From a virus: a stretch of 45,824 bases of DNA. The position numbers were made by a program, and so were the translations under genes. The notes beneath the pieces are model-generated. The model searched no databases. It was given only the letters and a program-made list of their open reading frames with translations, and was not told the DNA's origin. The stretch is taken from the IMG/VR virus record IMGVR_UViG_3300025168_000157, positions 1-45,824 of that record. One strand, written 5' to 3'. Shown here piece by piece: positions 10,683 to 45,123 of the stretch. Each line of letters opens with the position of its first letter. Within the stretch, counting starts at the first letter, position 1.

Positions 10683-11852
10683 CTAAGCACTCAAGTCCCT
10701 CACTTTACCATGCGCACCATAGAACAGTTGCCAAAGGTCGCCCATAGTATGGAACATACCCATTTGACCCAGCCTGTTGATTCCAAATGGATCGCCAGTT
10801 TCAATACCTGATTCGTGATATAGAGTAGGTTTAGCTGTGCAGAAATACATATAATCTGTATCCATGTAGTATAGACGGCTTAATCCGCCACCATCTTCAA
10901 CTACATCTTTAGAAGGAATTAGAGGAACACCGTTGTATGTTGCTACGATGAAACCAGCTTCCATACCGGGAACACCTTTTACACCATTAACGCCGGGTGT
11001 GACTCTCTTCATCTCAGTAAATCTTTGCTGAGGTTGTAGTAGTTGTTGGATTTTCTCAAGTGTATCATAGCCAGTCAAGATAACTTTTGGCTGACCTCCA
11101 CGTTCCCATACACTTCGGAACATACCGTCAAGGATGTTCAAAGTTAATGGTCTTTGAGCTGATGTTGTACCCGCATCTACGTTAGCATCATACCATTGTC
11201 TTGAGCTTCCATCGTCTGCTCTATCAATATTGTATTGCTTGTGGTCGCCAGCAGCTATATCGCTGAAGCTTGTAGTTTCAATGTTAGTAGCAGATATGCA
11301 ACGATCTAATGATTCAAAGTCATTTAATGTAGTTGAACGGTTGCTTACATCGCTTAGAAGCATTTTATTGATAACTTCAGCGTGATGTTTAGCCATTTCC
11401 ATTTTCATAACAGCTCTTGCATCTCCAAGACCGTCATCTTTGTCAGCTAAGAACATAGCTGTTTCTGATAGGTCAAAGGTATGAGCTACTGTGCGTGGTT
11501 TGTCGCTGACATGAGCAAACTCAGGCTTGATTGTATCTGGTAGTGTTCCGTTCTCAGGAAGTCCACCACCTACTGCACCTGCATTCGGTTTGCCTGTGAC
11601 GACTCTCCATCCAGACTTTTCCCATGGTTTCTTTGGTAGTATAGAAAAGGCGTTGAACTCTTGGTTGAGTTGCGACCAAACCTTTCTACCAAATATTGCT
11701 TGGTATGTACCTGTTGTGGTACTCATTAAAGGCGAATCTGCCTTCAAAAGGTCTGTACCGGAATATGCCCATGCGTTAGCACCTGCACCAGCTCCGTAGT
11801 ATAGCCTCTCCATATCTTCAATCGTGCGTATGTATCCTCTCGAACCACTCAT
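10683..11852 (-). CDS. major capsid protein, HK97-fold type
   Basis: The 389-residue product follows the protease/scaffold gene and has a strong GAGGTGA ribosome site, as expected for the most abundant virion protein. Length and features fit the HK97 family. A helical N-terminal segment (IEDMERLYYG) is followed by a long-loop region (WEKSGWRVVTGKPN ... GGGLPENGTLPD). A spine helix follows (GDARAVMKMEMAKHHAEVINKML), then a peptide carrying the conserved-type LNILDGMFRSVWERGGQPKV, where the capsid family places its A-domain. There is no obvious large N-terminal delta domain, consistent with scaffold being supplied by the protease gene. Confidence 0.85.
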   Translation of the reverse strand: MSGSRGYIRTIEDMERLYYGAGAGANAWAYSGTDLLKADSPLMSTTTGTYQAIFGRKVWSQLNQEFNAFSILPKKPWEKSGWRVVTGKPNAGAVGGGLPENGTLPDTIKPEFAHVSDKPRTVAHTFDLSETAMFLADKDDGLGDARAVMKMEMAKHHAEVINKMLLSDVSNRSTTLNDFESLDRCISATNIETTSFSDIAAGDHKQYNIDRADDGSSRQWYDANVDAGTTSAQRPLTLNILDGMFRSVWERGGQPKVILTGYDTLEKIQQLLQPQQRFTEMKRVTPGVNGVKGVPGMEAGFIVATYNGVPLIPSKDVVEDGGGLSRLYYMDTDYMYFCTAKPTLYHESGIETGDPFGINRLGQMGMFHTMGDLWQLFYGAHGKVRDLSA

Positions 11853-13265: not shown

Positions 13266-16200
13266 TCAGATTGAATCCGTGCGAATCGTGGGTTGTGCCT
13301 CTAATTCGCGGGTTTTTTCATTTTTTTCTTTAATTGGAATACGCATTATAACTTTATCACCTTCAAACTCTATTTGCGGTTCTTCAACATCTGCTTGAGG
13401 GTCTAAAGAAAGGTTAGGGATTTCCAATTTATCACCTTCTCTATCTCGATTTATAGGGTCAGCAAAAGTAGTATTATTTTCATCTGTTATTTCAGTAGCT
13501 CCTGTGGGTGCTGTAATGTCTGCTTGCATACCTGCCCAAGCTCCACCATCTCCAGATGCTCTATTCATTCTAGGAAAAACAAACTTTTCAACAACAGTCG
13601 TATCAACTATATCATCATCAATAGCTTCATTCAAAGTCCATTTGTCATCTTCTGTTTGTTCAATTCCGTATTCGCCACCAAATCTCAAAAGATGATCGTG
13701 TTTTAATCCTTCAACTCTTTCTTCTAATTCTTCTGATGTTAATGATTCCTCAGCATTGTCTATTGCTTCTCTAACGTGACCCATAAGATGGTGAACGTCA
13801 TCGCCATCATCATCATCATCAATAATAGCTGGTGCTTTTACTAGCTTTCTTTTCTTTTTCTTAGTAGCTACTGAATGAACAGGTTGGTATGTTCCTTCGG
13901 TAGTTGATGACACCATGCCAACACCCGCACCGCCACCTGCACCGCCACCTGCACCGCCACCGCCACCTTCTTTGAGTAAGAAAGCAATTGGGGGGGTCCA
14001 AAGAACTTCTTGTGATTGAGCTTGTTTTACTAAATGAGGGTAGCCTTCGTATCTATCAATAAATATTCCATGCTCATCATTTCCTAGCTTAACCTTTACA
14101 GGTGCTAATATTTCAGGATATTCTAATATCACAGTATCGCCTTTAATCATTACTTCAGGCAAAGGTGGGTATATTTTTGTTTTAGATATGTCATCATTAG
14201 CAAATAATATCCATTTTGGATGTAATTCTTTTTCTTTGATAAAAGTGGATGTGGCATCCCTAACAAAAAACTCGCCTCTATCAAAAGAAGCTATTGCTTT
14301 GACTAATCCTTCATCATCTGAATTAACACAATTAGAAGGCGCAGGGAAGTGAACATTGTCAGTTGAATGGTATAATGTTCTTAATACGTTAATTCTATCT
14401 TCTAATGGTTCAAAAGATAAATCAGATCCTTTATGGACTAACAAATCAATTACATTTAACGTGCTATCGTCTAAATAAGCATCAAAGGTAAAATCGCCTT
14501 TCATATCTTTGAGGTCTTTTGAAATTGTATTAGGAACACGGGGCTCTATTGATTTTCCTCTTTTTTCAATAAGCATACGTTCTCCAGATGGTTTATGTTG
14601 AACTATCCAATCACCACTAAATCCTTTCAAGGTAGTCAAATCATCTATGTCTTTCACCACATGAGCTGGTGTAATTAGCTTATTACCAAATACGCCAGTC
14701 GGTTCGTAATCATCATCGGATTTATGCAAATCGGTTACGAGAGATGGATAACCCGTGTGATTAGATGTGAGCAATCTAATATCTTCATCTTTTGTTTGTA
14801 TTGGTTTTTTACTATATGCAGGGTCTATCATACGAACATGACCTTCATGTGCTGTCCTTTGCATAATTGTAAATGGCTGTTCAGCTAACGAGAATGTTAT
14901 TCCAGAGCTTAAATCGTCAGACCAAATTAAAGTAGCGGGCATTCTATGACCCCAAGCATCAGTATTACCTGTATTGTAAATAGGTGGAACTACACCCATA
15001 GATTCGGGCGATACAGGGCCCAATGTTCCCTCTTCTGATGATAGTTGGCCGGAATCAAGATTAGGTAATGACATTACTGAATGCCCACCTGAATCACCAT
15101 ACTTCATCAAAGAATAATTTGCTGCCGCCATGAGCTGTTGAATATTTCCTCTAGCTATGGTATTAGCTTCAACATCAGCCCAAGCATTTTCACCAAGGCT
15201 TCCAATAAATACTTCAGAACCCAATTGCTGATTGACAATACCTGCAAGCCTCATGGCTTCTCTTGTCAATGCTTTATCTGCATCTTCAAAAAATGAATTG
15301 TGAAGTTTGTGGAAATCGGGATTAGAATTAGGATGTTCTAAGCCGATAAATTGAGCTAAAGGCGCACCGTGTTCTCCTACATTCATCATAGCCCTACCAA
15401 AAGGTGCAATCATGTATGCGTCATGTGGTATTGTCATCATTGAACCTTGAGATCCTATTTCAGATGGGTGCAAATGATGGTGGAATGCCGCCGCACCACT
15501 CCAATTAGCTCTTTTTCTTTCAAAATCTAAATTAACTGTGGAATCAGATGATACAACACCAGATAATTCGCCTTGCCCTGCTTCAGTATTTGCGGCCATT
15601 GGGAAGTGAGAACCTGCAATTGAATGTCTCCCGGTAAGAGGAATCCCTTCAAACAACATTTCACCAAGCCAAGATTCATTGAATATCTTAGAATAACTTT
15701 GTGAGAATATTGTTTTTAATGAATTAATATCTCTACCTACACCGCCCCAATATAGGAATGGTTGCCACCAATGGTGGTTATGATTCGGAACTATACCTTC
15801 TTCGCTTAGATTCCAAGGCGAATTGTGATGCCTATCCGGTGCTGTTGCATTCGGTCCAGCTTCAACGGGTCCTGATTTATCTGCTGGTCGCATCCACCAT
15901 GAAGCTAAAGGCGTAAATCTATCTCTCCAATTTCGCAACGCTCGACCCCAAGTAAGCCCTGCTTTTTCTGCAAACTTGTTATTTAGAAACTTAGCTTCAG
16001 GTGAACCTTGTTCAGTAGCTCCTAATTGCCCTACTAAATCCATGAATGTATCTCTTTGATTCGATGATTGATATTCTAAACCAAACAAATAAGATAACAA
16101 ACCATAGTTATCTGACAATTCTGTTTTTTTTGCTTCAAAATAACCTTCTTCAGAAAGCTCAGCATAACGGCTTCTATCTATGTTGTATAAGTCTAACATT

Positions 16201-16688
16201 GATTCAGCTGGGTCGCCCATCATTTCAAACATAGGTCTTAGGTCGTTTCTGATTCTTCTTTCAGCTTCTCTGCTATCACTTAATTGATTTATGAAACCAA
16301 GAACATGATTTGCATAATTAGGATCACCATGTACTGCACCGTGCAAAAGAGGGCAACTATTTGATTCGGGATGAAAAGGGTGTTGTTTTCCAAATCTATT
16401 ATCCATTTCAGCTTCAGGCCAATCGCCAGCGTAGCTAGTTGAAATCTTAGTATGGCCGTTAAGAAAAGCACTCATATCTTGAGGAATTACCATTGTTGAT
16501 GGATTCATAGGATTATCTAAATCTCTCATAGAGTAAGGTGGTGGTTCTGAAGCTACTGCAAGAGTAGCCGCATCTTGAGGTGATTCTACAACACCTAATT
16601 CTTCTTTGTAAATATCTAAATCATATTCTCCGCCAGTAAGAGCTGAAAGAAGTGTATCGGTTCTTTTTCTTACTAGCTCATCAGACAT
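13266..16688 (-). CDS. 1,140-residue virion-cluster protein with ligase-like nucleotidyltransferase core
   Basis: It starts at an ATG with a GAGGTGA site. Residues 1-680 are unknown, rich in His, Asn and Trp (for example HHNSPWNL and NHNHHWWQPFLYWG). Residues about 685-830 follow the order of ATP-dependent DNA ligase/capping-enzyme motifs: I as HKPSGERMLI (Lys699), III as FTFDAYLDDSTLNVIDLL, IIIa as PLEDRINVLRTLY, IV as DDEGLVKA (Glu793) and V as STFIKEKELHPKW. Motif I has Ser where KxDG ligases have Asp, and motif IV has its lysine one residue early, so activity is uncertain. A glycine-rich spacer, a KKKKRK patch and an acidic DDDDDGDD run precede a helical C-terminus. It lies between head genes, so it may be carried in the virion. 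Confidence 0.6.
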   Translation of the reverse strand: MSDELVRKRTDTLLSALTGGEYDLDIYKEELGVVESPQDAATLAVASEPPPYSMRDLDNPMNPSTMVIPQDMSAFLNGHTKISTSYAGDWPEAEMDNRFGKQHPFHPESNSCPLLHGAVHGDPNYANHVLGFINQLSDSREAERRIRNDLRPMFEMMGDPAESMLDLYNIDRSRYAELSEEGYFEAKKTELSDNYGLLSYLFGLEYQSSNQRDTFMDLVGQLGATEQGSPEAKFLNNKFAEKAGLTWGRALRNWRDRFTPLASWWMRPADKSGPVEAGPNATAPDRHHNSPWNLSEEGIVPNHNHHWWQPFLYWGGVGRDINSLKTIFSQSYSKIFNESWLGEMLFEGIPLTGRHSIAGSHFPMAANTEAGQGELSGVVSSDSTVNLDFERKRANWSGAAAFHHHLHPSEIGSQGSMMTIPHDAYMIAPFGRAMMNVGEHGAPLAQFIGLEHPNSNPDFHKLHNSFFEDADKALTREAMRLAGIVNQQLGSEVFIGSLGENAWADVEANTIARGNIQQLMAAANYSLMKYGDSGGHSVMSLPNLDSGQLSSEEGTLGPVSPESMGVVPPIYNTGNTDAWGHRMPATLIWSDDLSSGITFSLAEQPFTIMQRTAHEGHVRMIDPAYSKKPIQTKDEDIRLLTSNHTGYPSLVTDLHKSDDDYEPTGVFGNKLITPAHVVKDIDDLTTLKGFSGDWIVQHKPSGERMLIEKRGKSIEPRVPNTISKDLKDMKGDFTFDAYLDDSTLNVIDLLVHKGSDLSFEPLEDRINVLRTLYHSTDNVHFPAPSNCVNSDDEGLVKAIASFDRGEFFVRDATSTFIKEKELHPKWILFANDDISKTKIYPPLPEVMIKGDTVILEYPEILAPVKVKLGNDEHGIFIDRYEGYPHLVKQAQSQEVLWTPPIAFLLKEGGGGGAGGGAGGGAGVGMVSSTTEGTYQPVHSVATKKKKRKLVKAPAIIDDDDDGDDVHHLMGHVREAIDNAEESLTSEELEERVEGLKHDHLLRFGGEYGIEQTEDDKWTLNEAIDDDIVDTTVVEKFVFPRMNRASGDGGAWAGMQADITAPTGATEITDENNTTFADPINRDREGDKLEIPNLSLDPQADVEEPQIEFEGDKVIMRIPIKEKNEKTRELEAQPTIRTDSI

Positions 16689-18819: not shown

Positions 18820-20595
18820 TTATTCATCAGACTGACCTCTTTGGCCGTCTATGTTCAATCTTTTCAATTTAGCATCTGCTAATTTTTCAGACGATGTTTT
18901 ATCTGTATCTTTGTTACCTTTAGATGAAATTGGTGAACCTTCATTGTGAATTACACGTTCATTCTTTTTGGTTTGACCGCCTCTTGTTTGAGCTATTCCG
19001 CCTTCTCTAAGTGGTCTAATAGATGAACCTCTTGTTGATACCATAGCCGAAGCGTCTGGAACACTACCATGAACTGAATCAGTTACATCTCTTTTGAATA
19101 CTTCAAACTCACCCATTTTCTGAACAGGAGCTTGCCCCCCGCCTTGTTCTTGAGCCATAGCAGCTTCTTGAGCAGCTACTTCTTCTTCATTTGGTTCTGA
19201 ATAATCAAACTTAAGATATACATCGTCTATGTCATCTCTTAACTTAGCATTGAATCCAGCTTGTTTCATCTGCATCATGTTACGGATAGCCATTTCATCT
19301 CTTCGTAGTTGCATAATTTCATCCTCTTCTTCATGAGGGGTCAATGTTATCTCCCACTCATCTATTCCAAATGCGTCAAGCAAAGCAGGGAATAGAAGTC
19401 TGTTGTATATAGACTGAGAAAAAGATACAGACCTATTACTTACTACAATTTGCATACCTTCATTGTTTAATCCGCCACCAGATACGTCATTCATAAATAC
19501 ATTTGATACACCATAGAATGCAGATATTCTTTGGCGAATATCATCTTTGATAGGTATATACTGTAATTCCTCAAGAGTATCCATCATTCTAACATATTCT
19601 AAACCACCTCTTCCCGATTCAGTTTCAACACCAATTGTAGGTATGTAATTTGGATCACGTTCAAGATGCTCTTGAATATTACGAGCTGTTCTTTCAACAG
19701 TTTCCATATTAGATGATTTGATTACCATAACACCTCTTGGCATTCTTCTCTTTTGATAAGCTGAATAAACATAATTATCCATAGCTATGAGAGTATTTAC
19801 TTGTCGCCACATAGTAGCTACAGGGCTTCGACCATACAATTTAGATGGCGACCATTTGCTAATATGTATTACTTCACCCTCAGTATAGACTTGACCAGAG
19901 CCTACACCTGCAAGATTCATGTAATGAATAGGAACAACGGGCATACCAGTTGTAGGGCAAAGAGCAGAAGCATCTGTTGTTCTATATGCTCTATCCACTA
20001 AGCTAGTATATTGTGAACCGCCTCTAACCCCTCTTTTGTCAGAAAGTATCCTCATAAATATAGGGTCAGCTCTTGAAATCTCTTTTATTCTAAAGAAAGT
20101 AGGTGATTTAGTTTGAGGGTCAATGAAATATTCTTTTGTGACAATTAAATATGCGTCATCAACAATATTCAAATCCATTTCCAATTCTCTTAGAACGTCT
20201 ATAAATGTCTGACCCATACCATTTACATTACTGAATATTGCATCAGCGTATTCAATTTGACTCCTATCTGCCTTTCTAACTTCCCCGCCTGTTTCAGGAT
20301 CCATTTCGTATTCTTGATTGAAGCGTTGGTCAGTATCTACGCTTTTAACTACAAACTTAGGCTTCCAACCCCACCCTTTTCTAAAAGTTTCAACACAAAG
20401 ATGATTCAATATAGATCTTAAAACCATACATTCGTATGATGCAGCATACAAAGCAGGTATTGTGATACCTTGTAATAATGCAGGTTCTTGAATCCCTGAT
20501 GTGAATAAAGGCATAGAAGGAATAGGCGTTGTATGCCTTTCCATATCTAAACCAACAGCAGAAAATATTCGGTCCATGCGTTTCTTATCAACCAC
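18820..20595 (-). CDS. portal protein
   Basis: The 591-residue product has the portal hallmark GEVIHISKWSPSKLYGRSPV followed by a long helix (TMWRQVNTLIAMDNYVYSA), and then the RISAFYGVSNVFM and GMQIVVSNRSVSFSQSIYNR segments that build the crown and stem. It would form the dodecameric DNA channel and join to the terminase encoded two genes upstream. The GTG start is chosen because a GAGGTGA site sits 6 nt upstream and the start overlaps the preceding stop as GTGGTTGA. The last 100 residues are hydrophilic and disordered with a Lys-rich end. Confidence 0.85.
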   Translation of the reverse strand: MVDKKRMDRIFSAVGLDMERHTTPIPSMPLFTSGIQEPALLQGITIPALYAASYECMVLRSILNHLCVETFRKGWGWKPKFVVKSVDTDQRFNQEYEMDPETGGEVRKADRSQIEYADAIFSNVNGMGQTFIDVLRELEMDLNIVDDAYLIVTKEYFIDPQTKSPTFFRIKEISRADPIFMRILSDKRGVRGGSQYTSLVDRAYRTTDASALCPTTGMPVVPIHYMNLAGVGSGQVYTEGEVIHISKWSPSKLYGRSPVATMWRQVNTLIAMDNYVYSAYQKRRMPRGVMVIKSSNMETVERTARNIQEHLERDPNYIPTIGVETESGRGGLEYVRMMDTLEELQYIPIKDDIRQRISAFYGVSNVFMNDVSGGGLNNEGMQIVVSNRSVSFSQSIYNRLLFPALLDAFGIDEWEITLTPHEEEDEIMQLRRDEMAIRNMMQMKQAGFNAKLRDDIDDVYLKFDYSEPNEEEVAAQEAAMAQEQGGGQAPVQKMGEFEVFKRDVTDSVHGSVPDASAMVSTRGSSIRPLREGGIAQTRGGQTKKNERVIHNEGSPISSKGNKDTDKTSSEKLADAKLKRLNIDGQRGQSDE

Positions 20596-21931
20596 TCTTC
20601 ATCACCTCTTGTTTCATCAAATCAAAATTGCTAACAGATAACCTTTTACTTTTCAAAAATGCAACTTGCTTTTTCTTGTCAAGTGAATCGTGTATCATTA
20701 CCATCAACGCATTCTTATCTCTTCTGAGAGCCTTCTCTAACAAAAATGCTTCGTGATTATCGGCCATAATATAAGGCAAAGCCATATCTAACGCTTTAAG
20801 CACACCCTTTTCTCCTTCTATTGTAAGACCACCTGCTGTGGGTTTAACACAATCAACCCCCATTTCTTTATTCAATGCTGTAGCATACCAAGGTGCAGTA
20901 GGGGCTTTGAAGTTTAATTCAATACGAGGAATAGATCTTATATCAAACTTAATCGTAGAACCTGTTTCAATTAAACCAGCTAAGAAACGGTGTGCATCTT
21001 TCAAAATTACATCTCGTCTTTTAATATCATAAAACAACCCTCTTCCTATTGATTTACTAACAACTCCTACCGATACAATATCATAAAGAAAACCATGTGA
21101 TTTGATTAAAGAAGAAATCTCAGCCGGACTAGCTCGAACACCATTAAACTTCAAAGTATGAGCATTCAAAGCACCTTTTCTTAATAACAAATCAGAACAT
21201 TGTGAAAGAATGTTTCTTTCTCTTGCAGATATTCTTTGGTCTGCATCAACAACAGATTTCCAAACATTGTATGATTCGTTTCTAGCTTGTGATGTATTTG
21301 CTGATTCCCACATTTTTACAAACCTTCTGAAAGGAATACCTAATCTTTCAGAATATCTATTCAAACGATCATAATCTATATCAGTTAATGGTAATTGCTT
21401 AACTAACTGCGGTGAAACACCCGGAAATGATGACAATATTGCTTTCCTTTCTGCAATAAGAAGGGGATAAAGTGCATCTAAAGCTTCTAACTCTTGTTTT
21501 TGAATTAATAAAGATGCCATTTCCGAACCCGTCATTCCAAAATTATCTAAGAACCAATTTTTGTCAAGAGATAATTGTATATTTGGGTCAGTAGGTAAGC
21601 CTTCTTTAGTAGGCGCAGACACTTCACCATCCACATCAGATGTAGGAGATGAGCTTTCAGGACTATCCATACCTTCTATCTCCGCACCCTGCCCCTCTTG
21701 AGTCTTAGCCTTGTTAGCCTTGTCAGCATCCACCTTTTGCGATGCTGTTAGAGCTTGCGTTGCTTCTGAAACTTTAGTTTGTAATGCTTGAGTAGCTTCA
21801 GAACCAACGGCTGCACCGAACCCTGTTGCTGCAGCTAAACCTGCTGCGGCCAAAGGATTTTTGCGAATGTCAAGAGAATCTGCAAGAGTTTCAACACCTG
21901 TCAAACTTTTGATATAACGTCTATCAAGCAT
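20588..21931 (-). CDS. unknown virion-cluster protein between terminase and portal
   Basis: The product has 447 residues from the ATG at 21931, chosen because it overlaps the terminase stop as ATGCTTGA. Residues 20-50 form a small-residue hydrophobic stretch (AAAGLAAATGFGAAVG), next an Ala/Gln/Lys-rich coiled segment and an acidic linker. From residue 130 on, the chain is helical with basic patches (LLRKGALNAHTLKFNGVRAS, KKKQVAFLKSKRLS). The hydrophobic stretch could insert in a membrane, as ejection or pilot proteins do, but it is rich in small residues and may equally be a linker. Not recognised. Confidence 0.65.
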   Translation of the reverse strand: MLDRRYIKSLTGVETLADSLDIRKNPLAAAGLAAATGFGAAVGSEATQALQTKVSEATQALTASQKVDADKANKAKTQEGQGAEIEGMDSPESSSPTSDVDGEVSAPTKEGLPTDPNIQLSLDKNWFLDNFGMTGSEMASLLIQKQELEALDALYPLLIAERKAILSSFPGVSPQLVKQLPLTDIDYDRLNRYSERLGIPFRRFVKMWESANTSQARNESYNVWKSVVDADQRISARERNILSQCSDLLLRKGALNAHTLKFNGVRASPAEISSLIKSHGFLYDIVSVGVVSKSIGRGLFYDIKRRDVILKDAHRFLAGLIETGSTIKFDIRSIPRIELNFKAPTAPWYATALNKEMGVDCVKPTAGGLTIEGEKGVLKALDMALPYIMADNHEAFLLEKALRRDKNALMVMIHDSLDKKKQVAFLKSKRLSVSNFDLMKQEVMKSG

Positions 21932-23339
21932 CTTGCCACCCCAATCTTCTTTGCCAAGTAGCACCATCAAGAATTACAATATTTTCTCTATATTCCTTAG
22001 TAGCCTGAACTGAAAGAGCTAATGCTATAACCATATCGTCATGAGCCCCTAAACTCGCCATCTTACCATTATCAAGCATAGTAAAATATGATAATTCAGT
22101 CAATAAAGCATTCATGTGCCTTCGAGTAGCACCTTCATCCTTGTATGGAATAAGTAAATGCCGTTGTTCAAAGTGCAATTGTAATGTATGAATAAGTGCT
22201 TCCTTTTTCATCCTACTCATGTTGAAAGGTTTGATTGGTAAATCGCTAATTTCTTGAAGAACTTGATTAAATGCCATAGCAAAATTGTTAGTTTCAAGCT
22301 CTATTATAACAGGATTAAATCGGGTATTCAATTCAATTATTTTGTCTATTTGCTGATTAAAATCCATATTTTTCTCATGATGAACATGAACTACTCTTTT
22401 GTGCCTATTTTCATCCATACCTATTACAATCATACAAGTGTAGTCAGCCCTTCTATCTGCGCTGATTGCCGGATCCCAACCAATATAATAATTCAAAGCT
22501 TCATCCGGTTCAGGATAGTATGACAAAGCCAAAGTGTCATCTTTTACTCTCTCTAATGTTTCTTCGGGGAATAAGCTTGACTCACTAGCTATCGGTTTGC
22601 ATAAGTATTCTCTTGTAAAAGCAATAGAAGTCATTTCACCTTTACGAGCATTCAAAGCATCAAGATTCCACCTTTCAGGCCATAGTGGTTCACCTGAAGC
22701 TTCGTTGATTGCAGGGTATTCTCTAACACAATAACCGTCTAAACTCTTTAACTCAGAATACAAATCAGTATAGGAGAAAGGCGTTCCGACAATGCACATT
22801 TGAGCAGTATGGTGAAGAACAGGAAGAAGTGCAGTATAGAACCATGTAGCTATGGACTTTAGTTGTGTTTGAGCTTCACTTGATAGAATATCGTCAAGAA
22901 CTACTATGTCAGGGTGAGCCCCACGAACCGCCTTACCGATAGACATAGCACGAATAGATGACCTGTTAGTGAACTTGAATAACTGCTTAGCCCAACCTCT
23001 TTTGGGCTTTAGATGTGCAAGAGCTGGTGTTGTAACTATTAGCTCATCCATTTTAGCCATGTGGTCAATAGACTGATGCTGACTGTGGCTAAAGAATAGA
23101 ACCTCAGTATTAGAGTTGTAAGCCATTTTCCATAACAAATAGCATCTAAAGAATACAGATTTACCATGATCACGGCTTGCTATAACGCATATCTTACTGT
23201 TATTCTCGGCATTCTCATACCATTCTTTGTGAAAGTTTGCGAGCTGAAATCCACATATATCTTCAAAGAAGTATTGGAAGTCACGCCTTCCCATTTCAAA
23301 ATCAACCTTACTGGCTAATCTTTGAACGGCATCACTCAT
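21924..23339 (-). CDS. terL: terminase large subunit
   Basis: The 471-residue product has an N-terminal ATPase with Walker A ASRDHGKS (residues 54-61) and Walker B DIVVLDD (144-150, after GKAVRGAHP), and the coupling-type motif CIVGTPFSYTD. It also has the typical LWPERW peptide. The C-terminal RNase H-type nuclease shows acidic residues in YIGWDPAISADRRADYTC (Asp289), VIIELETNNF and GAHDDMVIALALS. It cuts and pumps viral DNA into the prohead through the portal. The start overlaps the upstream stop by ATGA. It is complete and has all key residues. Confidence 0.92.
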   Translation of the reverse strand: MSDAVQRLASKVDFEMGRRDFQYFFEDICGFQLANFHKEWYENAENNSKICVIASRDHGKSVFFRCYLLWKMAYNSNTEVLFFSHSQHQSIDHMAKMDELIVTTPALAHLKPKRGWAKQLFKFTNRSSIRAMSIGKAVRGAHPDIVVLDDILSSEAQTQLKSIATWFYTALLPVLHHTAQMCIVGTPFSYTDLYSELKSLDGYCVREYPAINEASGEPLWPERWNLDALNARKGEMTSIAFTREYLCKPIASESSLFPEETLERVKDDTLALSYYPEPDEALNYYIGWDPAISADRRADYTCMIVIGMDENRHKRVVHVHHEKNMDFNQQIDKIIELNTRFNPVIIELETNNFAMAFNQVLQEISDLPIKPFNMSRMKKEALIHTLQLHFEQRHLLIPYKDEGATRRHMNALLTELSYFTMLDNGKMASLGAHDDMVIALALSVQATKEYRENIVILDGATWQRRLGWQDA

Positions 23340-28993: not shown

Positions 28994-29487
28994 TTATACA
29001 ACGACCCTTTAGTATTGTTTTTGTAATCAAGCTCTAATCTTGCCCTATCTCTTTCAAGTTGTTTGATTGTTTTGAAAGAAGCGGCTACACGCATTGGCAA
29101 ATTAAGATACCAATGAGAAAGAGATGGAACTTTAGCATAGGATTTAGCTAGTGGAACATAGGCTTGTTTAAGTTTATTCATTTCCTTCATTACATCAACG
29201 AAATCCGCTTTTTCTTCATTCTCATCATCTAAGAACGAAAATATAGCAAAACGAGTAGTCAGATTTTTTGTGTATAAATCTTCAGCAACTTCATTAGCCA
29301 TATCTAATAAACCAAAAGGGGTCATTGATTCAACCCATTCTTTGACTACATAATCCATAGCATCAAGCAAATCCATCAACCCACTCCAATCAGAAGGTAC
29401 ATCACCGTGTAAAACATCTTCATAGTTGCTGTAAGGTCCTTCTTTGAGCTGTAACTCTTCTGGTCTTTTACCGATATGAAAACTCAT
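28990..29487 (-). CDS. helical protein, unknown
   Basis: The 165-residue product is mainly helical and acidic (GLMDLLDAMDYVVKEWVESM, EKADFVDVMKEMNKLKQAYV) with a coiled C-terminus (FKTIKQLERDRARLELDYK). It overlaps the zinc-finger gene by ATGA on one side and the lysine-rich gene on the other. Its partner may be the protein encoded upstream, because coupling keeps their amounts matched. No family recognised. Confidence 0.6.
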   Translation of the reverse strand: MSFHIGKRPEELQLKEGPYSNYEDVLHGDVPSDWSGLMDLLDAMDYVVKEWVESMTPFGLLDMANEVAEDLYTKNLTTRFAIFSFLDDENEEKADFVDVMKEMNKLKQAYVPLAKSYAKVPSLSHWYLNLPMRVAASFKTIKQLERDRARLELDYKNNTKGSLYK

Positions 29488-30194
29488 TCATCCATCACCC
29501 CTGCTTCTGCTAACATTTGTCGGATAACTCTCCACTCTTCAGGGGCCTTCTCCGAGAAATACTGTTGCATTATGCTAATCACAGACACGCTTTCAACCTT
29601 ATCCACTTCTTTGAGTTTATCCATCCATTTCGCAAGCTCCCCAAGAGTTTCACGAACTTCCCTGTGCATTTTAATCGCCAAATCTAAATCCTTACTAGAA
29701 ACCATATCAGGATTTTCTAACATTTGTTCTTCTAACCTATCTAAGTGTAATGAAAATAAAGAATCCATTCTATTCATATTCTTTTCAACACGATTCAAAC
29801 TATCATTAGTTGTCTGAATTGCTTTCGGTATAACTTCAATATTAGCTTGGCGTTGAATTAATGGTTTTGTATGTTTTTCCATGTGGTGAGAAATAGTCAA
29901 TTCAGGAATATCTAATTCTTCTGAAAAATCAATTATAGTAGCTCTATGGTCAAGAATTGCTGTTTCTATTTCTATTCTTTCAGGGTGCGTACATACAGGG
30001 CAATCTACGTTTGATTCGTTGAAAAAAGCACCTGCATGATTTCTCATGTGCCTATGAGCAACACCATTAGCCCAACCTTGATCTCTATCAATATCATTAG
30101 TATCAAGACAACCAGCTCGAACATCTAATTCAAGTGAATCTCTTTCGGGATGTTGGCAGAAAGGACAATTCTTGCGTATCCGCCTCCCACTCAT
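29484..30194 (-). CDS. double zinc-finger/HTH protein, candidate small terminase subunit
   Basis: The 236-residue product contains two matching units: CPFCQHPERDSLELDVRAG ... HRHMRNH (residues 10-53) and CPVCTHPERIEIETAILDH ... ISHHMEKH (65-108). Each has a CxxCxHPER knuckle, a helix-turn-helix-like segment and a pair of histidines. A long coiled coil follows (SLNRVEKNMNRMDSLFSLHL). A DNA-binding N-terminus plus helical oligomerisation region is the layout of small terminase subunits, none of which is otherwise apparent in the window. The assignment is inference; a transcription factor is the main alternative. Confidence 0.55.
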   Translation of the reverse strand: MSGRRIRKNCPFCQHPERDSLELDVRAGCLDTNDIDRDQGWANGVAHRHMRNHAGAFFNESNVDCPVCTHPERIEIETAILDHRATIIDFSEELDIPELTISHHMEKHTKPLIQRQANIEVIPKAIQTTNDSLNRVEKNMNRMDSLFSLHLDRLEEQMLENPDMVSSKDLDLAIKMHREVRETLGELAKWMDKLKEVDKVESVSVISIMQQYFSEKAPEEWRVIRQMLAEAGVMDE

Positions 30195-30225: not shown

Positions 30226-30693
30226 CTATTGCCCTTCAAACTTGCGTAAATGTATTCCACAATAACCCTTTTCTGATTTATCAGATATACGCCTCTTACA
30301 CCTATCACCAGATGATGTATGAGCTACACACCGTTCCGCATCAGTAGGATTTCTATAACATTCAACACATACACCCGTTTGATATTTTGATTTCTTTTTT
30401 AGTGCTTTGCCGCATCTAACGCAAGCTCTTTTTGTTGGTTTCCCGTCTTTAGGTGGGGTAGGCAAAAACGAATCAGCTAAACCATGTAAATCGTCAAGAG
30501 TAATTTTTCCATCATTGTTTCTATCAAGAGTTTTCTTAGCTACAGCCTTTACATCTTGAAAATTAACTTTACCATCTTTATTGTAATCAAAAGGCGAATA
30601 TTGTTGTTGGCGATTATATTGTCCGGGTTGGCGATAGTGTGCAACGGTAGGGGGTCGGTAGGGCCCCGCCATCGTCATAGATGGGGGGCTCAT
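30226..30693 (-). CDS. EF-hand pair plus zinc-binding C-terminus
   Basis: The 155-residue product has two canonical calcium loops, DYNKDGKVNFQD (36-47) and DRNNDGKITLDD (57-68). The spacing is that of a paired EF-hand or dockerin repeat. From residue 90 it has CVRCGKAL and CVECYRN knuckles. It ends with a C..HTSSGDRCKRR ... YCGIHL pattern resembling the short zinc-binding DUF5763-type motif. The N-terminus is Pro/Gln-rich. Calcium binding is strongly suggested by the sequence; the partner is unknown. It begins with an ATGA overlap to the two-pass membrane protein, so it may act at the membrane or in the virion. Confidence 0.7.
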   Translation of the reverse strand: MSPPSMTMAGPYRPPTVAHYRQPGQYNRQQQYSPFDYNKDGKVNFQDVKAVAKKTLDRNNDGKITLDDLHGLADSFLPTPPKDGKPTKRACVRCGKALKKKSKYQTGVCVECYRNPTDAERCVAHTSSGDRCKRRISDKSEKGYCGIHLRKFEGQ

Positions 30694-30953
30694 CGAAAAG
30701 CAGCGTATTGCCTAACTGCTAAAAAGAATGTTAAAAAAACACCCATAATAGCAACCATTGAAAATGTAGGATCCATTGTTGGACCCTTCCATAGCATTAC
30801 TGATGTAATTAAAAGCATAAACGATATAATGTAAATCATCGTTGCACTTTCAACTAACATCTTATTTGGTGCTAACATCTCCATTGTCGTGTCAGCCATT
30901 GTTGTTCCATAAGGTGTGCTATCTCTTCTTTCTCTCTCGTCATTCCTTTTCAT
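30690..30953 (-). CDS. small membrane protein, two transmembrane segments
   Basis: The 87-residue product has a charged N-terminus followed by two hydrophobic helices (MIYIISFMLLITSVML and FSMVAIMGVFLTFFLAV), joined by a short loop. A GAGGTGT site 5 nt upstream supports the ATG. The size and topology would also fit a holin or a membrane anchor, but no partner lysin is visible in the window. It is coupled to the EF-hand gene by ATGA. Confidence 0.65.
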   Translation of the reverse strand: MKRNDERERRDSTPYGTTMADTTMEMLAPNKMLVESATMIYIISFMLLITSVMLWKGPTMDPTFSMVAIMGVFLTFFLAVRQYAAFR

Positions 30954-30962
30954 ATTAACACC

Positions 30963-31616
30963 TCAGAGTAAAGCACCAGCACCCATCATAGCACCCATGC
31001 CGCCTTGATTTTGCATTTGCTGACCTAGAACATTCCCTATCAAGCTGCCGAAGAATCCCGGTTGGTTATTCATCATAGGATTATGAGCTTGGAGAAGCAT
31101 TTGTGTTTGTTGTTGATTCATCTGAAGCTGTTGTTGGGCGGATTGACGAATTGTTTGAAGAGATAAAGATAGGTTTTCAGGTGATAAAGTCGCAATATTA
31201 GTAGGAAGTGTAGTCATATCTAAACTAAGTTTTCCATCTTCCCCTGCGGCAAGTTGAACATTTGCGAAAAAGTCTTTGAGAGATAAAGCTATTATTTCGC
31301 CCATAAGATCCATAATCATACTAAATTGATTAGCTACTATGAATGCGTTTAGAGGGTCATAATACTGCAACAACCTTGATGTGGCTATAACAGGATCATT
31401 AGCCATTTGTTGCATCATAGGATTTTGACCCGCCATTTGCATTTGCATCGGGTCCATCATTCCACTTGTCATTCCATAACCATTATTCATTCCATTCATT
31501 CCATTCATTCCGTTCATTCCTCCCATAGCACCCATTCCTCCCATAGCACCCATATTATTTGATGCACCGAATTGTTGCGTAGGTGCTTCATTACCTCTGT
31601 TAAATAGCCAACCCAT
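30963..31616 (-). CDS. Met/Gly/Asn/Gln-rich low-complexity protein
   Basis: The 217-residue product opens with MGWLFNRG and then tandem MGAMGG and MNGMNG repeats. A structured helical middle follows (DPLNAFIVANQFSMIMDLMG), then Gln-rich and Met-rich tails. A GGAGAGAG site precedes the ATG. Both ends of the protein are repetitive and likely disordered; the function is unknown. The DNA repeats at 31440-31560 may vary in number between relatives. Confidence 0.6.
   Translation of the reverse strand: MGWLFNRGNEAPTQQFGASNNMGAMGGMGAMGGMNGMNGMNGMNNGYGMTSGMMDPMQMQMAGQNPMMQQMANDPVIATSRLLQYYDPLNAFIVANQFSMIMDLMGEIIALSLKDFFANVQLAAGEDGKLSLDMTTLPTNIATLSPENLSLSLQTIRQSAQQQLQMNQQQTQMLLQAHNPMMNNQPGFFGSLIGNVLGQQMQNQGGMGAMMGAGALL
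31485..31560 (-). repeat. Met-Gly/Met-Asn-Gly coding micro-repeats
   Basis: Tandem units of about 9 to 12 bp on the minus strand (ATGAACGGA and ATGGGTGCTATGGGA types) code for MNGMNG and MGAMGG. They make a slippage-prone tract at the 5' end of the 217-residue gene. Confidence 0.7.
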
Positions 31617-31629
31617 TATTCTCTCTCCA

Positions 31630-32628
31630 TTATGTTATTTGTTGTAGTCCTAGCGTATTTGTCTGAGGACTCTGATTTACCGCTGGTTGCGGTTGTGGTA
31701 TTGTATTTGGGGTCATATTAGGCATTACCGCACCATTTTGAAGCCCTATTGCTTGTCTTTGAGCCATCGCATCACTTATTTGTAAAGCTCTAAGGTCAAA
31801 TGTAACTGATACCAAATCTGCTACACCAGTTATAGGATTAGGGTATTGAGTCAAAACAATACCTTTCTTATGTTTCGTATCTTGCTGTATCATCTTGAAA
31901 AATGGTTCGTATTTGAGAAGAGAATCTGTTGTTGAACGATTTTGAGCAGAAGAACCGCCCATTAAGGTACTCATACCCGGAACTTTGAGAAACTTTGTTC
32001 CTTTACTAACGGGTCTTAATCCATCTGCCGTCATTTCATCTTCTTGAACTAATTTTCTTAAAGTGTGATAGATATGTAAATGAGCCGGACATAATGTGCT
32101 GTTCATCTCATCGCCATGATCACCTCTTGTTCTTGCGTGAGGAATAATTGAATTACCTGTTTCATCATCAAACCAATACAAATCAGCTAGACTAATCTTG
32201 CCCGGTAAATCGTAATCAACAATTTGTGCGTAGTCATTTTCGCCTTCAAGAAATCTTCTTACATCTACCCCGCAACAAGCACATTCAAAAGTTCCATTAT
32301 ATCTGTAAATACGCCATAGCCCTAGTAAATAACTAGGTGGTTTTAGTGCTTTTCTTAATTTTTTAATATTTTTTCGTCTTGCTTTTTTTGGATTGTCTGG
32401 ATTTTGCACTAATTGAACCTCAACTGTGGGTACTACTTCTTCAGTTCCGCCAAAGCCACCTGCCCCCCCTGCACTAGCGATTTCTGCCCTTTGTTGGGCT
32501 TTTATCATAGGATAAGCTATTCCTGATTGTGCGGCAACTACCTTCAATTGTTCGTCAGATAAACCAGCTAATTTAGCGTTTGCAGTACCCCCCATCCACG
32601 TGGGTAAGTGATTGCCAGTCCAGCTCAT
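31630..32628 (-). CDS. Cys/His protein, unknown
   Basis: The 332-residue product has a UBA-like N-terminal helix (AKLAGLSDEQLKVVAAQSG), a basic stretch (KKARRKNIKKLRKALKPP) and a CACCGVD knuckle near residue 118. About 65 residues later comes LCPAHLHIYHTLRK, which could supply a second pair of ligands as in HNH-like or treble-clef zinc sites. The C-terminus is Pro/Gln/Asn-rich. No catalytic assignment is safe. It follows the GTPase gene after a 43-bp gap. Confidence 0.55.
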   Translation of the reverse strand: MSWTGNHLPTWMGGTANAKLAGLSDEQLKVVAAQSGIAYPMIKAQQRAEIASAGGAGGFGGTEEVVPTVEVQLVQNPDNPKKARRKNIKKLRKALKPPSYLLGLWRIYRYNGTFECACCGVDVRRFLEGENDYAQIVDYDLPGKISLADLYWFDDETGNSIIPHARTRGDHGDEMNSTLCPAHLHIYHTLRKLVQEDEMTADGLRPVSKGTKFLKVPGMSTLMGGSSAQNRSTTDSLLKYEPFFKMIQQDTKHKKGIVLTQYPNPITGVADLVSVTFDLRALQISDAMAQRQAIGLQNGAVMPNMTPNTIPQPQPAVNQSPQTNTLGLQQIT

Positions 32629-32671: not shown

Positions 32672-33400
32672 TCACAGTAGTTCTACAATAGATATTAACA
32701 CCTTTTCCACATTTACGCCGTGTTGAGCTGAAATGGCATCTATGTCTGCTCTAACCCCTGCTTTTCTCAACCTTCTTAGCTCGCTTCGGAAGGGTGCAAC
32801 AATAGGATGCTCTCTTTGAAGATTCTTAGCCCAAAGATAGTCAGCTTCAGGAGTCCACCAAATATCCATTTTATTTACCAGAAATACTACGACTTTAGGC
32901 ATATAATTACTACGAGATGCTTTTTTTGCTTTTCTTGATATAGCAGTAGATACATCTGTTCTAGTAATGTTATCAATTAAATATTTGAATGAAGCTAACG
33001 AATCCTTAGCAAAAGCCTGACTTGTCAATACTCTATGATCAACCATGAATATGACTATTTCGCATTTGCGACCAAACATATCTTCTATCCATAGATTTCT
33101 GAATTGAGCTTGACCTGCTATATCTGCATTAGAGATTGGTATCCTATCTTTTTTGTATTTGATTAATTTTCTATGAGCTTTAGGAAGTCTAGCTTGTCCG
33201 TTCACCATAGGATGCGATGTTCGCATCTCAATAGGTATAGGGTCTATATCACCGGGAACGGTCAAATATTGATCTAAAGTAGTCTTACCCGTCATACTTG
33301 GTCCGTATATTCCGACTTTGTATGGTTTGAGAATACGATAAAACTTTTGTATTGCGTGAACCGAGCTAATGAGCAGATGCCCCGCAATAACCGCACTCAT
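32672..33400 (-). CDS. Ras/Arf-like small GTPase
   Basis: The 242-residue product has the full set of small-GTPase motifs in order: G1/P-loop GPSMTGKTT (33-41), G3 DIAGQ (93-97), G4 NKMD (176-179) and a G5-like ISAQHG near residue 224. The Gln after DxAG is the residue that supports GTP hydrolysis in Ras and Arf proteins. Residues 1-20 form a hydrophobic/amphipathic helix that could contact membrane. It sits next to small membrane proteins. The presence of a Ras-type GTPase in a tailed virus is unusual; a role in membrane remodelling or host-signal mimicry is inference. Confidence 0.75.
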   Translation of the reverse strand: MSAVIAGHLLISSVHAIQKFYRILKPYKVGIYGPSMTGKTTLDQYLTVPGDIDPIPIEMRTSHPMVNGQARLPKAHRKLIKYKKDRIPISNADIAGQAQFRNLWIEDMFGRKCEIVIFMVDHRVLTSQAFAKDSLASFKYLIDNITRTDVSTAISRKAKKASRSNYMPKVVVFLVNKMDIWWTPEADYLWAKNLQREHPIVAPFRSELRRLRKAGVRADIDAISAQHGVNVEKVLISIVELL

Positions 33401-33413
33401 GCGGCCAGCCTAC

Positions 33414-33635
33414 TCAGACACGGCCTTTGAGATATTCCCATAGGCCAATTGGGGATGTGCCTAATTCGTCTAATAGGATTAGGGAGGCAAAAGTTCCACC
33501 TATTCCTATTGCTAATGCTGCAACAGTCCTGACCCACCCGGCCATGCGTTCCATTTTTCTTTCGTAAGAGTTTTCTGCAAGAATCTGAGCCATTTCTGCG
33601 GCTTGTCTTTCTTGTCTTGTTGAAAAAGGCCACAT
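33414..33635 (-). CDS. small membrane protein, one transmembrane segment
   Basis: In the 73-residue product a charged helix (QERQAAEMAQILAENSYERK) precedes one membrane segment (VRTVAALAIGIGGTFASLIL). The ATG has an AGGTGG site 7 nt upstream. A second frame over the same DNA lacks any hydrophobic pattern and is rejected. It is directly upstream of the GTPase gene and could be its membrane partner. Confidence 0.65.
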   Translation of the reverse strand: MWPFSTRQERQAAEMAQILAENSYERKMERMAGWVRTVAALAIGIGGTFASLILLDELGTSPIGLWEYLKGRV

Positions 33636-33651: not shown

Positions 33652-34113
33652 TCAGTTGTTGGGCCCATCATCCTCATTTGAAACAGGGGAGTTAGGCAAA
33701 CCAAATAATTCTGTTCCTTGTGCTGTGGATTGCATTTGAGCCATTTGACCTTGTAGTTCTTGATAGTATTGTTGTTTCTGCATACGCCTGTTGGTCATTT
33801 GCATTTGATTTCTAAACCACTTATCATAACTAGCTTCTTTAGAAAACTCAGCTCTCATAGCCATACTATCTCTAATACCGCCTACTTGGAATAATACCAT
33901 TGAGGTGCATAAGAAACCGAATGCGATTAGTCCGTATTGTAATCCCATTTCACCTGCATTAGCAGAGTCAAGATACCAACCCATGTGAGAAATAGCTACA
34001 GCTACTCCTGTCAGTAAAGATTGCCATAAAAGCATGGCTATCAGATTTACATCTACTCGATTCCCTGTTGATTCTCCTTGCGGTTGCCACATTGGTATTT
34101 GTGTTCCATTCAT
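33652..34113 (-). CDS. membrane protein with two transmembrane segments and coiled tail
   Basis: The 153-residue product has two hydrophobic segments (VNLIAMLLWQSLLTGVAVAI, residues 22-41, and YGLIAFGFLCTSMVLF, 60-75). A Gln/Met-rich cytoplasmic-type helix follows (NRRMQKQQYYQELQGQMAQM) and then an acidic tail. It overlaps the ribbon-helix-helix gene by ATGA. With the neighbouring one-pass protein and the GTPase it forms a compact membrane-linked cluster; function unknown. Confidence 0.65.
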   Translation of the reverse strand: MNGTQIPMWQPQGESTGNRVDVNLIAMLLWQSLLTGVAVAISHMGWYLDSANAGEMGLQYGLIAFGFLCTSMVLFQVGGIRDSMAMRAEFSKEASYDKWFRNQMQMTNRRMQKQQYYQELQGQMAQMQSTAQGTELFGLPNSPVSNEDDGPNN

Positions 34114-34259
34114 ATTTTTCCTTCCTTTTGCTCATCTATAAGCCTAAAGTAGTGTTGTAACGCATGATTAACATACGATGATTTTGATTCTCTCCCCCTT
34201 TCTTTTTCCATTCTGCGGTATAATTCTTCCCACATCACTACTGAAACGTGTTGGCTCAT
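34110..34259 (-). CDS. ribbon-helix-helix DNA-binding protein
   Basis: From the ATG at 34259 the 49-residue product shows the ribbon-helix-helix pattern: a short beta strand (QHVSVVMWEEL), a first helix (YRRMEKERGRES) and the second helix beginning SSYVNHALQHYFRLI. An upstream in-frame ATG at 34361 would add 34 residues unrelated to this fold and overlap the previous gene, so the shorter form is preferred, although no ribosome site is seen. Small RHH proteins of this size usually repress viral or plasmid promoters; the target is unknown. Confidence 0.6.
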   Translation of the reverse strand: MSQHVSVVMWEELYRRMEKERGRESKSSYVNHALQHYFRLIDEQKEGKI

Positions 34260-34317
34260 TGTATCGGTCTGAAATATGAGAGCCTTAAGAGAGTTGTTAT
34301 AGATGACAGGGTTGAGG

Positions 34318-35508
34318 TTAGATTTTTCGCATAAATTGAGTAATATCAAGACCCGCATCAACAGCTCTTGGCCGTAAGTCTTGGTCGTAATCTAATTTTA
34401 GATTGTTTTTACTATTCAAACCAGTTTTTGTGTTCTTAGTAGAACCTCGATGAAGTGCAAAACTAATCGGATTAACACCAGTCCAACAATCATCACAATT
34501 ATGATCTTCACAATTACCCCCTAACATAGAAGCTGGACAGGATTCAACTGAGGGGTCTAACGAAGATGCCGAGCTTGCCTTTATTCGAGGATGCTCTAAC
34601 AATTCTTCATAACCTGTTGAAAAATCGTCACCTAAACGAGGCAAACCATACGCATCATTAATCTCATTGTCTTGACCTTGGCCTATCCACGGTAATGATA
34701 GCATAACTCTTAGATTCTCTGGTATAGATTCCCACCCTCTTTTATCTAAAAATGATTTGACACCTTTGGATTCTCTTGTAGGCAACCAATAATCATTGTT
34801 GGGCGTGGCTGAAGCTATATCTGCTAACATAGCAAAATGTTTAGCACCATAATTTTTGTCTGTTTCACCCTTACCTTGTTGTAAATCCCCACTATCCATG
34901 TGCCTAAACTTGTTAGAGCCGTAATAAAACGATTCAGCAGGGGCTCTATTGGCAAAGGCAGACGCATAACTTAGAGGATCATCTTCTGTTAATTGGTGAA
35001 AATTACGCCATAATTGTGTTTGTTTTGGATTCATAGCATAATGATGTTGCTTTGCATAACACATTTTACCGTCTGAGCCACCGCAGGTTGAACCAGCTAC
35101 CATACCTAATCGGCCACCTACATGACATAAATGCACAGGCATACCAAAAGAAGCTCCGGGCATTTTGTTTGGTGTTCCAAAACCACCTTTTGGATTAAGA
35201 CTTACTCTTTTGTTAGCTTCTTCAACTGCACTTCTTCCTGATGTGCGACCATCACTTCCTCGAAACTTTGGAATGCTAACTTGTTCATCAACATTCCAAT
35301 CCACTAATCTATTTGCTTTGTAATCATTTATTTTTTTAGGATTTTGTTCCAACCAACGAAATACTTTACCGCCCGAACCCAAACTTTGTCCTCCAAGAAG
35401 TTTGTCCCAATGAAACATCTCGTCTGGTTCACCAACGGCTTTTGCTATCACCCAAGCCTTTTCAAAAAGGTTAAGGCTATCCCTCATAATAAACTGTTGA
35501 GAGCCCAT
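34318..35508 (-). CDS. tagged protein resembling phage gp88 family
   Basis: The tag FEKAWVIAK lies at residues 15-23 of 396, or 8-16 if ATG 35487 is used. The body resembles the 'gene product 88' family of phages (Pfam GP88 pattern). It has a CHVGGRLGMV ... STCGGSDGKMCYAKQHHYAM cysteine region, FRHMDSGDLQ, a MLADIASATPNNDYWLPTRE segment and CPASMLGGNCEDHNCDDCW near residue 340. The family's function is unknown, so this says only that it is a known mobile phage type. It is the leftmost member of the contiguous tagged arm. Confidence 0.55.
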   Translation of the reverse strand: MGSQQFIMRDSLNLFEKAWVIAKAVGEPDEMFHWDKLLGGQSLGSGGKVFRWLEQNPKKINDYKANRLVDWNVDEQVSIPKFRGSDGRTSGRSAVEEANKRVSLNPKGGFGTPNKMPGASFGMPVHLCHVGGRLGMVAGSTCGGSDGKMCYAKQHHYAMNPKQTQLWRNFHQLTEDDPLSYASAFANRAPAESFYYGSNKFRHMDSGDLQQGKGETDKNYGAKHFAMLADIASATPNNDYWLPTRESKGVKSFLDKRGWESIPENLRVMLSLPWIGQGQDNEINDAYGLPRLGDDFSTGYEELLEHPRIKASSASSLDPSVESCPASMLGGNCEDHNCDDCWTGVNPISFALHRGSTKNTKTGLNSKNNLKLDYDQDLRPRAVDAGLDITQFMRKI

Positions 35509-43939: not shown

Positions 43940-44308
43940 CTATTGTGTTTCAACTACTTCCCAATCGTGATCTTCCTCACCATCAGCACAAAACTCATCA
44001 CTATCTATAAAACCACCATCATTAGCTATGGCTACCGCACCGCAATCCATACACTTGTAACGTGTAGTCCATTGAGGACTACCGTCTTGATTTGTGTCGT
44101 TAATCCAAGATTGCATGATGTATTCAGTATCGTCAAGCTCTTTGACAACATTCCATGCTTTCTCAAATGATTCCTTTTTACCAGATTTCTTATCCATCTC
44201 AGCATAGCAAGGACACTTTGGAGCTTTACTTGAACACTTTGTTATCCCCTTCTTCATGCAAATGCAGGGGTTAGACTTGGTTGCACCGCAACAGCATCCA
44301 TCTTTCAT
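43940..44308 (-). CDS. Cys-rich protein with internal FEKAW tag
   Basis: The product has 122 residues from ATG 44308, where the start overlaps the upstream stop as TAATG and an AGGTGG site lies 8 nt before. The first 45 residues hold nine cysteines (CCCGATKSNPCIC, CSSKAPKCPCY). Then comes ESFEKAWNVVKEL at about residue 47. A second zinc-type pair (YKCMDCGAVAI) and an acidic tail follow. A cysteine-rich module has been placed in front of a normal tagged sequence. Confidence 0.65.
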   Translation of the reverse strand: MKDGCCCGATKSNPCICMKKGITKCSSKAPKCPCYAEMDKKSGKKESFEKAWNVVKELDDTEYIMQSWINDTNQDGSPQWTTRYKCMDCGAVAIANDGGFIDSDEFCADGEEDHDWEVVETQ

Positions 44309-45108
44309 TAACAATTCCACCTATCAAGAGCTGCACCTTTTGGTGTTTTCTTACCCTCTTTACTGGTGGGCCCTTTGACACCACCCATTCGAGCGCAGAA
44401 TGATTTTCTTCTTTTTGCTTTCTTACTATCTGGATCAAGCGTTGATGGTTTTTCAGTCACAGGTGGCTTTAGATTAGCTCCCTCTTCTTTCTTTGCCTTA
44501 GCTCTACCTTTGGCATTTAACCCACCTTCTTTGCTATGTTTGTTAGGGTTGTACCCATGAAATGGTTTGTCGTCTTTCTTCTTTTCTTTCTTCTCTAAGA
44601 TTCCATGAACGGTAGTGCAGACATTACAACCGCACTCATAGCTCTTGTTAGTCAGCTTATTCCAATTCTTCTTATCAGGGTAGTCCTTATCTCCGGGTTT
44701 AGCTGCCTTCTCGCCTCTTTTCCTCTTAGCATGAACATTATCCCAAAGACCACGTTTGCCTTTATCCATGTAGGCCATGCTTTTTCGAGTTTCTTCAAAT
44801 CGTTTCGTTTCCTCACAGCTAACGCAATCACAATCACCTAAGCCCGCCCCTGATTTACAATAAGAACCATCTTCATTAACGTGCAAAGCCGCTGCCCAAC
44901 ACCAATCACCATCGCCACCGTGTAAAATACAGGGTTCTGCCTCATAACCGTCATCGCTATGTTCTCTTGCGAGTATTTGACAATTATCTCTATCCTTATA
45001 TTCTTCTATCTCATAGTCAATCATCTCATCATCTCTGCTTCCTGAATCAAATATGTAAGGTGGACTCATTTTTACTACAGGCCAAGCCGTAGAGAACGCA
45101 TCCGACAT
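44308..45108 (-). CDS. tagged protein with DUF6321-like C-terminal domain
   Basis: The product has 266 residues from ATG 45108, which begins MSDAFSTAWPVVKMSPP. Residues 85-145 hold cysteine pairs (CDCVSCEETKRFE, ECGCNVCTTVHG) and a SMAYMDKGKRGLWDNVHAKR box. The last 75 residues (HSKEGGLNAKGRAKAKKEEG ... KSFCARMGGVKGPTSKEGKK ... GAALDRWNC) closely follow the DUF6321 phage domain, also found in marine T4-like phages; its function is not known. It is very basic there, so nucleic-acid binding is possible. There is no ribosome site, but the 16-nt promoter-like element lies 15 nt upstream. Confidence 0.65.
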   Translation of the reverse strand: MSDAFSTAWPVVKMSPPYIFDSGSRDDEMIDYEIEEYKDRDNCQILAREHSDDGYEAEPCILHGGDGDWCWAAALHVNEDGSYCKSGAGLGDCDCVSCEETKRFEETRKSMAYMDKGKRGLWDNVHAKRKRGEKAAKPGDKDYPDKKNWNKLTNKSYECGCNVCTTVHGILEKKEKKKDDKPFHGYNPNKHSKEGGLNAKGRAKAKKEEGANLKPPVTEKPSTLDPDSKKAKRRKSFCARMGGVKGPTSKEGKKTPKGAALDRWNC

Positions 45109-45123
45109 AAACAAATCTAAGAT

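Follow-up and report, generated by a model that had tools for sequence, protein, structure and literature searches.

Small GTPases acting as switches on membranes are described from eukaryotes, from Asgard archaea and from the vesicles of haloarchaea, where ArvA causes vesicles to form in Haloferax and carries an N-terminal helix proposed to insert into the membrane (Mills et al. 2024, PMC10927574). Virus-encoded small GTPases are also represented by the Ras/Rab proteins of giant viruses, which are eukaryotic viruses with eukaryote-type Rab, Ras and Ran genes. How archaeal tailed viruses exit from their hosts, or make use of the host membrane, is poorly known, and the hosts of magroviruses are some of the most abundant archaea of the surface ocean.

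The stretch of DNA analysed here (the window) corresponds to a virus record and spans 45,824 bases; its genes for capsid, portal, protease and terminase are of the tailed-virus type. On its minus strand it encodes an HK97-type major capsid protein (10683..11852; phrog_24667, 6.2e-53) showing 35% identity to that of the Haloarcula tailed virus HCTV-1, a portal protein (18820..20595; phrog_18178, 9.2e-56) and the terminase large subunit, TerL (21924..23339; phrog_38, 7.1e-74). Identity to the Haloarcula viruses of Druskaviridae is about 35% for both capsid and portal, and the magroviruses of Poseidoniales stand in the same relation to Druskaviridae in the ICTV profiles (PMC10768690, PMC12999244). 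A relative of the GTPase described below was found on a 106 kb contig (L016) of the Poseidoniales single-cell assembly AG-422-I20, the capsid gene of that contig being 83% identical to the one in the window. The window is thus a magrovirus-type archaeal tailed virus (Caudoviricetes, order Magrovirales) with marine Poseidoniales as hosts, a label read from sequence relationships, namely the relation to Druskaviridae and the single-cell contig. As part of a single-cell assembly and bearing the genes for both GTPase and capsid, the magrovirus-like contig L016 is itself a candidate host link; no terminal overlap was detected in it. Two further minus-strand products of the window are a 1140 aa protein within the structural run (13266-16688), without a Pfam or PHROG match, and a 268 aa protein with a DUF6321 domain at its C-terminal end (44308-45114; 8.1e-17). 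A promoter scan returned no more than expected by chance.

The original prediction, a Ras/Arf-type small GTPase at 32672-33400, concerned an open reading frame that is indeed present and complete from ATG to stop, encoding 242 aa on the minus strand (33400..32672), an orientation that had gone unstated. It lies in the same strand run as the terminase, portal, protease and capsid genes, upstream of them. Motifs G1 (GPSMTGKTT, residues 33-41), G3 (DIAGQ, 93-97), G4 (NKMD, 176-179) and G5 (SAQ, 224-226) are read directly in the protein sequence, together with a tryptophan at residue 104, eleven positions beyond D93 (D+11), and a basic insertion at residues about 147-168, while R60-T61 is a candidate G2 in switch I. 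In the AlphaFold2 (AF2) model, an N-terminal helix comprising residues 2-24 precedes the first strand.

Modelling with only 14 sequences gave a pLDDT of 57, and the run on an 80-sequence alignment was used instead (mean pLDDT 90.0, pTM 0.87), with residues 1-20 modelled at low-to-moderate confidence. The model has 1270 PDB fold matches at E<=0.001, and the best 50 are nearly all Ras, Rab, Rap, Rho or Arf proteins, at E about 1e-8 to 1e-7; the Asgard protein GerdArfR1 (PDB 8oum) aligns with a target-normalised TM score of 0.72. The family profile matched the GTP-binding protein 8oun in the PDB at 1.7e-6, and the window protein alone gave one weak match, to the same entry, at 1.5e-4. Its Pfam matches are all below threshold (GTP_EFTU 4.7e-4, Roc 0.004, Arf 0.011), and single members of the family match the small-GTPase models TIGR00231 (18/80, best 2.3e-5), Arf (15/80, best 1.6e-4) and Roc (16/80). 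Matches of the family profile to Arl8/Arf span residues 83-127, outside the P-loop. Kinship with ordinary P-loop ATPases, or a G4 motif lacking conservation, would have told against the GTPase assignment; the best matches are GTPases and G4 is invariant. RecA, Sak4 and similar ATPases were discarded as candidates, their matches being limited to the P-loop. Judged from motifs and model, the product is almost certainly a true member of the Ras/Arf-type small GTPases, and its sequence leads us to infer that it binds GTP.

Family-wide conservation was evaluated on homologues from viral contigs, successive scans of which found 14, 56 and 51 GTPase loci, the last scan, with the 80-sequence alignment as query, matching 271 stretches; altogether 107 copies were gathered, 96 of them distinct. 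All 96 keep G33 and GKTT (38-41), R60-T61 in switch I (with a putative Mg contact of T61), D93 and G96 of DxxG, N176, K177 and D179 of NKxD, and W104. The invariance of GKTT, DxxG and NKxD suggests that nucleotide binding is under selection. At residue 97, by contrast, where Ras and Arf have their catalytic Gln, 50 of these homologues have Q, 27 have E, 16 have D and 3 have H; the claim that all guanine-nucleotide motifs including this Gln are present therefore stands for G1, G3, G4, G5 and the Gln of the window protein, while the Gln is not a feature of the family. The second Gly of DxGG is kept in 66/96 and replaced by Ala in 30/96, and positions 224-225 of G5 vary among SA, AA, AT and SS, the second clade carrying ATR. 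Between the window gene and that of L018 dN/dS is 0.03, with dS near saturation.

A census started from the portal rather than from the GTPase, which samples relatives near the window, detected the GTPase in 22/22 portal-bearing relatives whose contigs continue for 13.5 kb or more on the upstream side of that gene; truncated portal contigs lacked it, as expected, and carry no information for this count. The GTPase is thus a core, near-universal and presumably late gene of magrovirus-type viruses.

Outside this lineage, the expectation that such a protein is not a standard part of tailed-phage genomes is borne out, since no homologue was detected in 50,697 phage records and the best 50 matches listed from the BFVD structure library are all giant-virus proteins. 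These Ras/Rab GTPases, the only viral fold matches among those listed, show no sequence kinship to the magrovirus-type GTPase beyond the fold. Neither was a homologue found in the 35 kb morphogenesis region of the Druskaviridae relative HVTV-1, which has portal, protease and capsid proteins in common with the window. The searchable literature, from which the primary magrovirus papers were left out, makes no mention of a magrovirus GTPase, and an earlier annotation is possible.

A host-acquired regulator had also been envisaged. However, the sole full-length match among 146 host-class genomes is a viral contig, and small GTPases were found in about 11/99 host-class (Poseidoniia) genomes, most of those sampled showing none with the models used. 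The GTPases that do occur are Rab-like and share all G motifs with the viral protein (profile-profile probability 95.9, E 6e-9), but they are much shorter, lack the N-terminal helix, have TSAK as G5 and score only 3-4 bits with the viral profile. Long Poseidoniia open reading frames (460-580 aa; L126-L130 and G014) also give weak P-loop matches and are not the GTPase. Within Thermoplasmatota, the best cellular matches of the viral profile, over residues 11-66, are ArvA/OapA proteins, identified by their OapB and OapC neighbours. ArvA was not found in the sampled host class, nor was OapB in any of its 146 genomes. Recent host acquisition was rejected, given the lack of ArvA and OapB in the sampled hosts, the distance of their Rab-like GTPases and the viral nature of the only full match. 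ArvA as a true homologue was equally rejected: with residues 28-42 (P-loop strand and motif) masked, the similarity is lost and the score is no better than that of Rab-like proteins, so that ArvA serves as an analogy, kinship with it not being supported.

The genes around the GTPase were followed among 57 relatives, on the same strand and at near-constant offsets, lower denominators being eligible relatives. All are encoded on the minus strand. Directly upstream, 33414..33635 encodes a 73 aa protein with one predicted transmembrane (TM) segment (55/57 relatives, same offset), and is followed by 33652..34113, for a 153 aa protein with two predicted TM segments and a polar Gln/Met-rich tail (53/55 eligible), and by 34110..34361, for 83 aa with an uncertain start codon (51/55 eligible). 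Directly downstream, 31630..32628 encodes a putative Zn-binding protein of 332 aa, present in 57/57 relatives, in which C116 and C180-P-x-H183 are invariant in 104/104 sequences. Beyond it lie a Met/Gly/Asn-rich protein (30963..31616; 217 aa, 56/57), a membrane protein with two predicted TM segments (30690..30953; 87 aa, 55/57) and a protein with the paired Cys motifs CPFC and CPVC (29484..30194; 236 aa, 57/57), a terminase-small-subunit candidate by its position. Two other genes of the region are less constant, namely 30226-30693 (-), whose 155 aa product combines two EF-hand/dockerin-like calcium motifs with a zinc-ribbon-like tail and occurs in only 17/57 relatives, and 34318-35508 (-), upstream of the GTPase run, whose 396 aa product matches phage Gp88 (PF17338, 4.8e-12) and occurs in 43/52 eligible relatives.

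Hydropathy thus agrees with the original prediction of three small membrane proteins near the GTPase, and these genes do stay together with it, at 53-55 of 55-57 loci in relatives. In the second clade, sequence inspection of a few sampled loci, where automatic ORF picking was crude, revealed a similar pair of one-TM and two-TM proteins upstream of the GTPase. Distances between GTPases correlate with those between neighbouring proteins (Mantel r 0.60-0.92, p 0.001), best with the 29484-30194 product (r 0.92) and with r 0.86 for TerL, as expected for co-inheritance; proximity and co-variation would also fit mere linkage within one viral lineage.

Considering these observations together, our best guess is a membrane-recruited switch that would act late, in assembly or exit, with its membrane-protein neighbours, an explanation that we hold tentatively and that, taken whole, falls just short of an even chance, its mechanism being slightly more doubtful. 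Upon GTP binding, the hydrophobic N-terminal helix 2-24 would attach to the cytoplasmic face of the host membrane in the manner of Arf proteins. There the GTPase would cooperate with the products of the two small membrane-protein genes immediately upstream, the downstream zinc-type protein (31630..32628) possibly being its regulator; the GTPase and its partners would then organise or remodel that membrane at a late stage of infection, while virions assemble or leave the cell. The invariant motifs, the fold, the helix, the Arl8/Arf matches outside the P-loop, the Trp at D+11, the membrane genes fixed in both deep clades, the co-varying distances and the run of morphogenesis genes all argue for such a switch. 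Against it stand the weak amphipathic signal in the second clade and the replacement of Gln 97 in 46/96 homologues, which places the hydrolysis mechanism in doubt, and exit is not favoured over assembly or entry.

The same gene run would suit a GTPase with an accessory part in building the virion or packaging its DNA, for example one that switches assembly or sets its timing, the membrane genes then being mere neighbours. Its location upstream of TerL, portal, protease and capsid, its near-universal presence in relatives and the way its distances track the 29484-30194 product and TerL are in agreement with this reading; nonetheless, we regard it as rather unlikely, since HVTV-1 shares portal, protease and capsid proteins but showed no GTPase homologue in its 35 kb morphogenesis region, so that conserved head functions can do without one, and since this reading leaves the N-terminal helix and the adjoining TM genes unexplained. 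A role directed at the host, by mimicking or titrating a host GTPase or its regulators and so reprogramming the cell, would be in line with small GTPases being cellular regulators and with the Rab-like proteins of some host-class genomes. Such a role appears improbable, given that most sampled host genomes show no detected small GTPase, that the viral protein is far from those of the hosts, and that a core late gene kept alongside membrane genes is an unusual pattern for host takeover.

The replacement of Gln 97 by E, D or H, together with the extra segments between G motifs relative to Arf, might instead point to a GTP-binder that no longer cycles, structural or a pseudo-GTPase and delivered, for example, in the virion. 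GTP hydrolysis without this Gln is, however, common among real GTPases, such as Rap, with Thr, and Era-type proteins, and the selection on nucleotide binding suggested by the invariant motifs also speaks against this option, which we consider very unlikely. Finally, GTP_EFTU being the best single Pfam match of the window protein, although below the cut-off, might suggest a translation- or ribosome-type GTPase (EF-Tu/Era-like). That assignment is already disfavoured and has hardly any likelihood, since the size of the product, its N-terminal helix, the Trp in switch II and the matches of fold and profile better fit a Ras/Arf protein.

Returning to the membrane-recruited switch, the comparison with Arf/Arl proteins, including the Asgard ones (8oum GerdArfR1, 8oun), reveals shared features, namely a helix that precedes the first strand, a G1 ending in GKTT, the fold of the model and the switch II pattern D-x-[AG]-G-[Q..]-...-L-W, the last read as DIAGQAQFRNLW in the window and DLGGQLHFRNLW in 8oun, with the Arf spacing of the Trp at D+11 kept in 80/80 members. 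The N-terminal segment shows a mean amphipathic moment of 0.34 against 0.22 for its own shuffles, reaching p<0.1 in 49% of 95 sequences, with a weaker signal in the second clade. On the contrary, the viral GTPase has about 242 aa against some 180 in Arf/Arl, with its G motifs set further apart and a Met-Ser/Ala N-terminus without Gly2, and neither the catalytic Gln nor the second Gly of DxGGQ is fixed. The window protein scores 15.7 bits with Pfam Arf (PF00025), below the cut-off of 22.3 bits, and no member was shown to reach a curated Pfam cut-off for Arf or Ras, the best of 80 for Arf standing at E 1.6e-4. Since Gln and second Gly are not fixed and the Pfam Arf score stays below the cut-off, the viral GTPase is Arf-like, not Arf.

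ArvA/OapA resembles the viral GTPase in length, in having an N-terminal helix for which membrane contact has been proposed (PMC10927574) and in a zinc-type protein encoded nearby, but its G3 is DTPG, unlike the DIAGQ of the window protein, and the viral neighbours are TM proteins, no Pfam match to the OapB and OapC of the ArvA operon being detected in the run. By analogy, the two TM proteins, the GTPase and the zinc-type protein might constitute the virus's own Arf/ArvA-like membrane-remodelling module, playing for the virus a part like that of ArvA in the vesicle formation of other archaea, in hosts that lack ArvA, and serving virion exit or membrane-linked assembly, although we consider this unlikely. 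A viral, lineage-core small GTPase is unusual in a tailed virus, and one kept alongside membrane proteins provides a concrete, testable entry point; if it acts as proposed, switch-type membrane GTPases would be known from a prokaryotic virus too, besides eukaryotes, Asgard archaea and the vesicles of haloarchaea.
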